Shown here in pieces: positions 39,209-42,751 of a stretch of DNA of 42,999 bases; position 1 is the first letter of the stretch; each line of letters begins with the position of its first letter. The notes under the pieces are model-generated. The model searched no databases and was not told where the DNA came from. It saw nothing but the letters and a program-made list of their open reading frames with translations. This stretch comes from Chitinophagales bacterium. Lineage in GTDB: Bacteria > Bacteroidota > Bacteroidia > Chitinophagales > UBA2359. Made by a program: the position numbers and the translations under genes. Where the stretch lies: contig JAHDEE010000030.1 in assembly GCA_020629005.1 (NCBI GenBank), positions 1-42,999 on the forward strand. The letters are read 5' to 3'.

Positions 39209-40834
39209 CTACTTGAGGGGCTTGATCAGGCTAAGTAAGATGCCTGAAGCGATTATCTCACGCGCCTTCTCCATATCGTGACGCAGATAATGATCGCTGG
39301 TATCGGTACCTAATTGCTCTTGTTGCGATGCGAACTTGTGGATTTTTGAGGTTTCTGTTCCCAGTTTTGCCAGTTTTGAAGGCAACCAGTCTTGTGTGAG
39401 TTGCAAGGCTCTGGTTGCGCAAAGTAATTCGATACCCAATAGTGTTTCCAGATTTTGCAGGATTTTTTTGAGGTGCAGTACTGCAAGACTGCCCATGCTC
39501 ACAAAGTCTTCCTGATTGGCGGCTGTGCTGACAGACATCACGGAAGCGGGAGACGAGAGCACCCTATTTTCGGCAGCTCTTGCTGCGCCGGCGTATTGTG
39601 TGATCATCAGTCCTCCGTCTGCTTTGTGTGTATCCTGGGCCAAATCGGCGGGCAGACCAAAATTCAGATTTTTGTCTAGCAAAGAAAATGCTCGTTTGTC
39701 AGAGACTAAGCCAACAGAGGTGATGGCCAGCTTGAGATAATCAACGACGGTTGCCAGGGCCTGACCGTGAAAGTTTGCACCACTGGCAAATTTCACCCCG
39801 CCAGTACTCTTGTCTTTCTCGGCAAAATCAAAGAGTGGATTGTCTGTTGCTGAATTGATTTCTACTTCCAGTGTTTTTTTGAGGTGCAGCAGGGCCTCCC
39901 AGGCTGCTCCATGAATTTGCGGAACTGCGCGGAAGCTATAGCGATCCTGCACTCTTTCTGCTCCGGCAGGACGATTGCCAAAGGCTGCACGCTGAGCAGC
40001 CAGGCTGGTTCGTTTTGAACCCTTCAATAGGGCACGGAGGTGTCGTGCTATTGCCAACTGTCCTTCATGCCGATCGCTTTGTTCGTTGATGAGGGCATCA
40101 AAAGGAATCTTTTCTCCCCTGATAGCTTCCAGAGAGAGGGCAGCACAAATAGATGCATTTTTCATTATATTTTCTGCCCGAAGGGCTGCAAGCGCGGCAA
40201 TGGAAGCCATAAAGTTAGAGCCGTTAGTGATTCCCATTGCTTCTTTAGCTCCCAGCACCAGCGGTTCTATACCTGCAGCCTTGAGGGCTTTGGGGCCGTC
40301 CATGAGCTTACCTTTGTACCAGGCTTTAGATTCTGGTAGTGCAATCATAGTGGCACCCATCATGGCTAGTGGGACGAGGTCGCCACTAGCACCTACGGAG
40401 CCTTCTTCGAGAATCCAGGGGCTGAGACCTGCATTGAGCATGTCTACCATTTGGTCACAAACAGCAAGCGAAATTCCTGACATAGCCTTGGCAAAGGAAT
40501 TGAGCCTAATCAACATGATGCCTCGCACTTCTGCTTCTGTCAATGCTGCTCCGGTGCCACAGTTGTGGACTTTGATGTACTTGACCTGATACTCGGCAAT
40601 GGCATCGAGGGGCACAGGTATGTCTTTCAAATCGCCATGTAGACGGTTTGTGCCATAGATAGCAATTTCAGGAAAGTCTCGAATTTGCTGTTCAAGTTGG
40701 GACCTGTTCTTTGCTATTTTTCGGCGAATGCTATCCGGAATTTGTACCCTGGCTCCCTCCAAAGCCACGGCCCTTACCTGTTCGAGGCTCAATCCTTTGC
40801 CTTTCACAGATACCGTCTTTTGCTCAGTCTTCAT
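39209..40834 (-). CDS. hutH: HAL/PAL/TAL-family aromatic or histidine ammonia-lyase
   Basis: This enzyme of the MIO family removes ammonia from an aromatic amino acid or histidine. Starting at the ATG at 40834 gives 541 residues; the frame is open further upstream into hisS, but the extra 59 residues are not family-like. The MIO-forming Ala149-Ser150-Gly151 lies in GSVGASGDLVPLA, and Tyr60 (AIYGTN) fits the catalytic Tyr. ITNGSNFM, QDRYSFRAVPQIHG and NSATDNPLFDF are conserved. The usual NTGFG is replaced by NRLHG, and the substrate-selectivity pair is Val89-His90. The His favours histidine or possibly tyrosine, but the substrate is not settled. It follows hisS by 55 nt, and no other hut genes are present. 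Confidence 0.82.
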   Translation of the reverse strand: MKTEQKTVSVKGKGLSLEQVRAVALEGARVQIPDSIRRKIAKNRSQLEQQIRDFPEIAIYGTNRLHGDLKDIPVPLDAIAEYQVKYIKVHNCGTGAALTEAEVRGIMLIRLNSFAKAMSGISLAVCDQMVDMLNAGLSPWILEEGSVGASGDLVPLAMMGATMIALPESKAWYKGKLMDGPKALKAAGIEPLVLGAKEAMGITNGSNFMASIAALAALRAENIMKNASICAALSLEAIRGEKIPFDALINEQSDRHEGQLAIARHLRALLKGSKRTSLAAQRAAFGNRPAGAERVQDRYSFRAVPQIHGAAWEALLHLKKTLEVEINSATDNPLFDFAEKDKSTGGVKFASGANFHGQALATVVDYLKLAITSVGLVSDKRAFSLLDKNLNFGLPADLAQDTHKADGGLMITQYAGAARAAENRVLSSPASVMSVSTAANQEDFVSMGSLAVLHLKKILQNLETLLGIELLCATRALQLTQDWLPSKLAKLGTETSKIHKFASQQEQLGTDTSDHYLRHDMEKAREIIASGILLSLIKPLK

Positions 40835-40889: not shown

Positions 40890-42464
40890 TCATGCCTTAT
40901 CTGGCATAATGGATCGGATGTGACTGACCAAATCTGCTCTTTGCACTTCCTTTTGTACTCTTTGCTTCCACTCTTGCTTGTCTGCAATTGTGGCGGAAAG
41001 CTCCTTGCCAAGAGCGAGATTTCTCACGGTAACTACTGACTTAGCCAACTCATCTTCTCCTATCAGCACTGCCACTGGACAGTTTTTCTTATCGGCATAG
41101 GACAATTGTTTTTTGAGCTGCTTGCGTGCACCGTAGAATATCTCTGTATCAATGCCCGACTGGCGAAGTTCCTGTGCAATCAGCTGATATTCCATCATTA
41201 AATTGTCGTCAAACATGACGATTAATACAGGCCCCATAGCCTTTGCCATGTCCTGACCGGTTGAGATAAGTACGTCAGCAAGTCGGTCGATCCCGATTGA
41301 AGCGCCGGTTGCGGGCACTTTCATACCCAGGAGATTTTCTACCAGCCCATCGTAGCGACCTCCACCGCAGATCGAGCCGATTCTACGTTTCTTTCCTTTG
41401 GCATCTTTATAGGTCTGCAAGGAAATTGCTTCAAAAACCGGTCCTGTGTAGTATCCGAGTCCGCGTACCAGTGTTGGATCAAAGCAAATTCGACTTTCGT
41501 CAAAACCAAGTTTGCTGAAGACTTCATTCATTCTGTGCAGCTCAGCAAGCCCTTCACGTGCCAATTCATTATCTCCTATCTGACGATCCAGATCGGACAA
41601 CACAGTGTTTCGGTCGCTGCCCTCGGAAAATGAGCCGAGCAGATCCATGATGCCTGTAATCCATTGCTGGTCTAATCCGAGACCTTTGATATTGGCTCCT
41701 GATTTTTCTTTTCTTCCTGGTCCAAGTTCGAGCTCGAGTTCTGTCATGGAAATCTTATCCGCCTTGTCGATTACGCGAATAATGTCCATCTCCTGAGCTT
41801 GATCGGCTACCCCTAGCGCACGTAAATACCCGGACAACATTTTCCGGTTATTTGCCTTGATCACATAATTGCCAGGTTCGACTCCGCAAGCTTCTAAAGC
41901 ATCTGAAAGTATCATGCAGGATTCGGCATCTGTCATTACATCTTCAGCACCCACCGTATCAAAATCAATTTGTCCGAATTGTCGATACCTGCCGGGTTCT
42001 ATTTTGACTTCATAACGAAATACGGGACCATACTGAAAGCGTTTAAACATTGGAGCTTTGCCTTCTACTACTTGCTTACGCATGAAGTCCATCCAGAGCT
42101 TTTCCGCGTACATTCTCGCTAAGGGGGCTGTGAGATCATAACGCAGAGAAAGATAGTGATTATCCATATAGGTCTTCCCCTGCTCATCTTTCAGATCTTT
42201 GCCATCGGTGCCTAGTACAGGCTCTAGTTCGGGGCTCTTAAAAGAGTACACGCCTTTATCTACAGTATCTTCGTCTGGCAGGTACTTTCCCAGACAGTCT
42301 GCATATTCCAGCACTGGTGTGTCCCAGTGTTCAAATCCGTAAGATTTATAGACTTCAGATGCCTTAGTAATGATCTTTTGTTTCAGTTCAGTCAATCCTG
42401 GATCATCGTCGCGAAAACCTCTCACTTTGCGAGGAATATTACCCCTCTTTTTGGTCATTTCCAT
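40890..42464 (-). CDS. hisS: Histidyl-tRNA synthetase, alphaproteobacterial-like type
   Basis: HisRS charges tRNA-His. The 524-residue class II synthetase has SLRYDLTAPLARMYAEKL, motif 2 (FKRFQYGPVFRYE then GRYRQFGQIDFDTVGAED, about 140-175), the His-specific block LVRGLGYYTGPVFE (about 332-345) and motif 3 GGGRYDGL (367-374). The anticodon-binding domain follows (about 412-505, including QLSYADKKNCPVAVLIGEDE). LGKYLPDEDTVDKGVYSF, QIDFDTVGAED and YVIKANNRKML resemble alphaproteobacterial HisRS more than the E. coli type or the common Bacteroides type. The adjacent tRNA-His lacks G-1 and C73, which fits that type. The alternative start MTKKRG lies two codons downstream. Confidence 0.95.
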   Translation of the reverse strand: MEMTKKRGNIPRKVRGFRDDDPGLTELKQKIITKASEVYKSYGFEHWDTPVLEYADCLGKYLPDEDTVDKGVYSFKSPELEPVLGTDGKDLKDEQGKTYMDNHYLSLRYDLTAPLARMYAEKLWMDFMRKQVVEGKAPMFKRFQYGPVFRYEVKIEPGRYRQFGQIDFDTVGAEDVMTDAESCMILSDALEACGVEPGNYVIKANNRKMLSGYLRALGVADQAQEMDIIRVIDKADKISMTELELELGPGRKEKSGANIKGLGLDQQWITGIMDLLGSFSEGSDRNTVLSDLDRQIGDNELAREGLAELHRMNEVFSKLGFDESRICFDPTLVRGLGYYTGPVFEAISLQTYKDAKGKKRRIGSICGGGRYDGLVENLLGMKVPATGASIGIDRLADVLISTGQDMAKAMGPVLIVMFDDNLMMEYQLIAQELRQSGIDTEIFYGARKQLKKQLSYADKKNCPVAVLIGEDELAKSVVTVRNLALGKELSATIADKQEWKQRVQKEVQRADLVSHIRSIMPDKA

Positions 42465-42587
42465 AGCTCAATGTTGTTCCTAGGCGCGGTTGCGTCTGGC
42501 AGGGCAAGGCCCCTGGTAAAAATTCGTTTTGTTTTGCAAAATAGCTTGCTTTGATGCTTGAAGCCGCCGCTGCACCAAATTTGGGTA

Positions 42588-42624
42588 CAAAAAGAAAAAG
42601 CATCATTCATAATGAACAATGCTT
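42588..42624 (-). terminator. Intrinsic terminator after tRNA-His
   Basis: On the minus strand AAGCATTGTTC pairs with GAATGATGCTT (11 bp with two G-T wobbles, 5-nt loop), followed by TTTCTTTTT. It starts 8 nt after the tRNA 3' end, so tRNA-His is its own transcription unit and hisS needs its own promoter or read-through. Confidence 0.75.
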
Positions 42625-42631
42625 CTTCTAG

Positions 42632-42704
42632 TCCCACCGTCCGGGTTCGAACCGGAGGCCTCCTGATCCACAGTCAGGCGCTCTACCAGCTGAGCTACAG
42701 CAGG
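42632..42704 (-). tRNA. tRNA-His (GTG)
   Basis: A 73-nt cloverleaf is visible on the minus strand: D stem GCTC/GAGC, anticodon stem CCTGA/TCAGG with loop CTGTGGA (anticodon GTG), T stem TCCGG/CCGGA with loop TTCGAAC. CCA is not encoded. The acceptor stem has seven pairs, three of them G-T wobbles. Position -1 is T and position 73 is A, whereas nearly all bacterial tRNA-His have G-1 paired with C73. It lies 167 nt upstream of hisS on the same strand. Confidence 0.95.
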
Positions 42705-42751
42705 ATATTTTGTCACTTATGCGCCTTGAAATCCAGGACGCGTTTAGTCCG

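Follow-up and report, generated by a model that had tools for sequence, protein, structure and literature searches.

A linked tRNA-His/HisRS pair with a probable non-standard histidine identity in Bacteroidota and neighbouring phyla, likely spread by horizontal transfer

Introduction

How is histidine assigned to its tRNA in a bacterium whose tRNA-His gene does not encode the G-1:C73 pair? The G-1 nucleotide has been called nearly universal in tRNA-His, and bacterial loss of it is regarded in the literature as peculiar to one clade of Alphaproteobacteria, with a likely single origin (PMC3937112). In ordinary HisRS, the Gln of the motif 2 sequence PQKGR contacts G-1:C73 (PMC3937112), and in C. 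crescentus, histidine identity is reported to lie in A73, U72 and the anticodon (PMC9976931). Our literature search, incomplete in coverage and no proof of priority, found no report of a tRNA-His lacking G-1 in Bacteroidota or related phyla.

The question is raised by one contig of a Chitinophagales draft genome (42,999 nucleotides analysed as a whole, hereafter the window), in which a first-pass annotation had placed a divergent HisRS of alphaproteobacterial type beside a tRNA-His without G-1 and C73. Here, we document the gene content, linkage, phylogeny, patchiness and covariation of this gene pair. We are confident, if short of certain, that it represents a self-matched and horizontally moved tRNA-His/HisRS cassette with a non-standard, G-1-less histidine identity in which a second rule change has taken place.

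Results

The tRNA-His(GUG) gene lies at 42632..42704 on the minus strand, where ARAGORN and Rfam agree (42631/42632-42704; RF00005, 63.7 bits) and where genome-wide patterns also place it. C1 is position 42704, and the acceptor strands CCTGCTG/CGGTGGG form a C1:G72 first pair. The discriminator at position 73 is A (42632), the nucleotide at position -1 (42705..42705, minus strand) is T and not G, and the G-1:C73 pair is not encoded. The T-1 and A73 of the first-pass annotation are confirmed by strand reading, and the C1:G72 pair is a further oddity that comes on top of them. CCA is not encoded in the gene, and the tRNA body is normal. Directly 3' of the gene is an intrinsic-terminator-like hairpin of 17 pairs with a T tail (42593..42629, minus strand), so tRNA-His and hisS may be transcribed separately. 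Among the tRNAs of this genome (L016, L018), tRNA-Pro(GGG) also carries C1:G72 and A73 and matches tRNA-His in these acceptor-end elements.

The hisS gene starts 167 nt downstream of the tRNA-His gene, a spacing that stands as first annotated, and is an intact open reading frame of 524 aa (40890..42464, minus strand), found by genome and family scans. Its product, a divergent histidyl-tRNA synthetase, scores 329.2 bits against the NCBIfam TIGR00442 hisS equivalog, above the curated cut-off of 286.75. It shares 31-39% identity with ordinary Bacteroidota enzymes and stands apart from them in the tree described below, in line with the earlier remark that it is unlike the usual Bacteroides form. 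Its motif 2 loop, residues 150-159 (RYEVKIEPGR), is encoded at 41988..42017, exceeds the usual length by one residue and includes an E at residue 156 (41997-41999, both minus strand). As the only HisRS found in the genome, this enzyme very likely charges tRNA-His with histidine.

A histidine-ammonia-lyase-like gene follows 55 nt after hisS (39209..40834, minus strand), and the same lyase subfamily is found 3' of hisS in several other cassette loci. The aromatic or histidine lyases that adjoin hisS in cassette loci fall into several subfamilies only distantly related to each other (30-35% identity); that of G304 is a 665-aa frame (L094 2028-4022) in which an insert separates two stretches that match the family. 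We rejected the lyase as a cassette-specific partner, because lyases also adjoin ordinary Bacteroidota hisS, in 19 of 56 loci; this arrangement suggests a more general functional link between hisS and histidine breakdown.

Only one tRNA-His was found in the window genome by a tRNA scan (31 hits; a first look scored 150 of 342 candidates) and tRNA-His patterns, and only one HisRS by genome and family scans. The pattern search found no C73-type tRNA-His, and thus no second canonical G-1:C73 gene of the kind that the first-pass annotation had named as speaking against its reading, and the scans found no ordinary HisRS in this genome. These counts rest on searches of a draft genome that is 96.7% complete, and it is unlikely that a second histidine copy is missing from it, because sister genomes show the same single pair. 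Nearly all of 44 genomes examined (43 of the cassette clade and the alphaproteobacterial G361) have one HisRS; G336 has a second, shortened copy, and the two matches in G352 are pieces of one frame. In G336 (L136, L113), the cassette is present twice, each copy with its own tRNA-His, and a stop codon truncates one of the two HisRS to 257 aa. The Kapabacteria-labelled G360 (L204, L205) holds a cassette tRNA and HisRS at a contig end together with an ordinary G-1:C73 tRNA-His and an ordinary-like HisRS, which points either to a mixed bin or to two systems that coexist naturally.

Within the family of the window organism, a HisRS was matched in 19 genomes, and in 4 of these it is the divergent enzyme. 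The three relatives share 82, 62 and 61% identity with the window HisRS, and the remaining family enzymes are ordinary (32-36%; G303 and G300 gave partial matches). All four genomes carry a tRNA-His with T-1, A73 and C1:G72 adjoining hisS, and all 8 other family genomes in which a tRNA-His was found have G-1:C73 (in L090, where ARAGORN starts one base early, G-1 was taken from the sequence). Both types occur within a single genus, with the cassette in G304 and not in G303 and G305. Of the 299 order genomes, 291 have a HisRS, which is of the divergent type in 7. A non-C73 tRNA-His pattern matched six of the 299, all six with divergent HisRS; the seventh divergent genome, G309, reads TAGTTCA, outside that pattern, and its A73 was established separately. 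The C73 pattern matched 60 of 80 sampled order genomes and neither of the two cassette genomes in the sample (60 of the 78 others). HisRS type and tRNA type agree without exception in the order (A73 in 7/7 divergent genomes, non-C73 in none of the 292 others), and the match between enzyme and tRNA first seen in the window is upheld on this larger scale.

A search of 84,980 species genomes returned about 50 relatives of the cassette HisRS at 50-82% identity. Every named cassette genome is a MAG, and the labels are Saprospirales, Bacteroidales, Ignavibacteria, Kapabacteria and Aminicenantes/Acidobacteria, with single Deltaproteobacteria and Oligoflexales; they are taken from record titles, which may be in error for individual contigs. 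Where the contig extends far enough, the tRNA-His gene directly precedes hisS in nearly every member, and the pairing in the window is not due to chance, as neighbouring pairs with these features were seen at about 40 further loci. No cassette member encodes the complete G-1:C73 pair, and G is present at -1 in two, L127 (with T73) and L116 (with A73). In L099, L107, L124, L155 and L171-L175, the ARAGORN start is one base early, and positions -1 and 1 were taken from the sequence. Flanking genes vary between loci. No transfer event with its ends was caught among the cassette loci compared, and where a replacement at the same genome site was sought, in G303, G305 and G310, the flanks differ from those of the window. 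Viral contigs contained no cassette relative, phage records held distant HisRS only, and plasmid matches above ordinary identity were alphaproteobacterial. The pair seems to have spread horizontally between phyla as a unit, and we infer that it was transferred as one piece of DNA. The co-transfer of neighbouring genes that was first suggested for this locus gains support from the linkage in nearly all relatives and from the patchiness within the order.

What replaces G-1:C73? The Gln that reads this pair in motif 2 is absent from all 47 cassette enzymes examined, and the cassette loop, xKLDPGR, is one residue longer than the GPGR or DPGR loop of the alphaproteobacteria. The discriminator is mostly A in the cassette, with G or U in a few members. 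Deep cassette branches mostly have G1.U72 with A73, as in the alphaproteobacterial tRNA-His read here (L206), and the Saprospirales lineage of the window has C1:G72, with U1:A72 in L108 and L112. Asp156, at the position of the Gln, is present in 17 of 17 enzymes that accompany G1.U72 versus 0 of 22 that accompany C1:G72 or U1:A72, and no other HisRS column is fully conserved in the former and absent from the latter. Among tRNAs with G1:C72, L121 and L129 go with Thr at 156, and L116 keeps Asp. The covariation between residue 156 and the 1:72 pair amounts to two joint changes that arose independently and a single change of the pair with residue 156 kept (L116), and is not significant after correction for descent. 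Because the joint changes are too few for significance, we hypothesize only that residue 156 may read the acceptor end, possibly the first pair itself. L116 belongs to G339 (L182, L116), where the cassette HisRS is deep-branching and the tRNA-His, on another contig, has G-1, G1:C72 and A73, a eukaryote-like end.

A site-mixture model was applied to a HisRS tree of 59 sequences, in which the G-1-less alphaproteobacterial enzymes (99/95) are the sister group (100/100) of the cassette clade (100/100), the two being joined by long branches, and ordinary Bacteroidota HisRS are separate (100/100); a quick tree of 100 rows agrees. Forcing the window genus together with ordinary Bacteroidota costs 132 log units and is rejected (AU p 6e-36), so the grouping that the first-pass annotation had named as a counter-finding is not seen. 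The tree does not give the direction of transfer, that is, which of the sister groups was donor and which recipient.

Discussion

Could the window genome have obtained hisS and tRNA-His directly from a member of the known alphaproteobacterial group without G-1? The best non-cassette matches of the cassette HisRS are alphaproteobacterial (36-44% identity), and the two groups have the lack of G-1, A73 and a PGR motif 2 loop in common. However, the tree does not point to known Alphaproteobacteria as the source, because the cassette clade is sister to their enzymes and not nested among them, each clade with 99-100% support; the loop differs in length, and hisS stands in a different context in annotated alphaproteobacterial records (hisZ-hisG). 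We therefore consider such a direct transfer improbable. The alphaproteobacterial assignment in the first-pass annotation holds in so far as the HisRS is divergent, related and G-1-less, but its place is in a separate clade, and the likeness fails for the tRNA, which has C1:G72 in the window versus G1.U72. Convergence, in which an ordinary Bacteroidota HisRS and its tRNA-His lost G-1 and C73 in place, would fit the ordinary bacterial body of the tRNA, yet it conflicts with the AU test and with an acceptor end and gene linkage that are common to other phyla, and has very little probability left. As improbable as convergence is an assembly or binning artefact in which the real histidine genes are absent from the draft: all genomes concerned are drafts and the two systems of G360 might reflect a mixed bin, but the window cassette is located on a 43-kb contig that also carries an mraZ-to-ftsZ cell-wall/division cluster (gene names by ORF reading), the neighbouring genes are retained in another species of the genus, and the near-complete G526, G550 and G558 show the cassette pair and nothing else.

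A further possibility concerns the mature tRNA, in which U-1 might be kept as a U-1:A73 pair or G-1 might be added after transcription. A pair between -1 and 73 could form in most cassette tRNAs (U-1:A73; A-1:U73 in L099/L155; U-1:G73 in L113/L117/L123), but in L122, L126, L130, L121, L129 and L116 such pairing is impossible. Since U-1 is also the commonest leader base in the window genome (17 of 29 tRNA genes read), it needs no special reading in tRNA-His, and we rejected a hidden stem of 8 bp, closed by a conserved -1:73 pair, because of these non-pairing members and common U-1. Addition of G-1 after transcription had been named at the outset as a counter-explanation, but Thg1 (PF04446) has no match in the cassette family genomes G000 (the window genome), G301, G304 and G309, in a search that was positive in two other family members and one control genome; mature alphaproteobacterial tRNA-His also lacks a -1 nucleotide (PMC6471195). 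Retention or addition thus appears rather improbable, and we infer from these comparisons that RNase P probably cleaves at +1, leaving no G-1. Thg1-family proteins are encoded in two family members with ordinary HisRS (G297:C143:2286-2654, G310:C181:807-1163).

The horizontally moved, self-matched cassette is the explanation that we favor. A cassette clade, sister to the alphaproteobacterial G-1-less pair, would have spread with its two genes kept together, and the incoming cassette would have displaced the ordinary tRNA-His/HisRS pair. HisRS, with a rebuilt motif 2 loop, would charge tRNA-His by recognition of its anticodon together with A73 and the 1:72 pair, a specificity predicted by comparison. 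The ancestral rule would be G1.U72 with A73, and in the window lineage, the first pair may have changed to C1:G72 as HisRS lost the Asp that accompanies G1.U72. From the first interpretation, the matched divergent pair, without a second tRNA-His or ordinary HisRS found, and the co-transfer are retained, and the alphaproteobacterial HisRS is not. The arguments for and against a broader proposal seem evenly balanced to us: that the mobile cassette of several phyla forms one wider family with the alphaproteobacterial G-1-less branch, and that histidine identity in it underwent a second rewriting, from G1.U72 to the proline-like C1:G72, with a matching switch at the motif 2 residue that would read the acceptor end.

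The window system is a variant of the known G-1-less histidine system, outside its alphaproteobacterial group. Like the RRCH group (Caulobacter, Sinorhizobium, Rhodobacter), it lacks an encoded G-1 and has A73 and a HisRS without the motif 2 Gln, and the deep members of its clade also have G1.U72. In contrast to that group, the cassette belongs to other phyla and its tRNA-His adjoins hisS, the U72 identity element is absent from the window, and the motif 2 Gln is replaced by Glu (Asp in G1.U72 relatives) where RRCH enzymes have Gly. The ordinary Bacteroidota HisRS is likewise a class II HisRS with the same job in the same phylum, but works with a PQKGR loop and G-1:C73, and a scan of the regions flanking ordinary hisS loci detected no tRNA gene. 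Trypanosoma brucei and Acanthamoeba also charge a G-1-less tRNA-His by an unusual HisRS, in a eukaryotic setting (PMC6471195; literature comparison only), and eukaryote-type G-1 addition differs in its use of Thg1.

The range of G-1 loss is far wider than one alphaproteobacterial clade and takes in Bacteroidota and neighbouring phyla, which is still compatible with the enzyme type having arisen once. As tRNA-His and tRNA-Pro of the same genome both have C1:G72 and A73, the question arises how mischarging is avoided. The C1:G72 lineage offers a natural experiment on how a synthetase adapts when its tRNA changes, and the clade as a whole holds many tRNA/synthetase pairs that are likely orthogonal to the E. 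coli HisRS. Because the adjacent, matched genes appear to move together, the usual barrier to synthetase transfer, mismatched tRNA rules, would be removed. The cassette may thus represent the natural replacement of an identity system, in which a part of the recognition rules of the genetic code is swappable by gene transfer.
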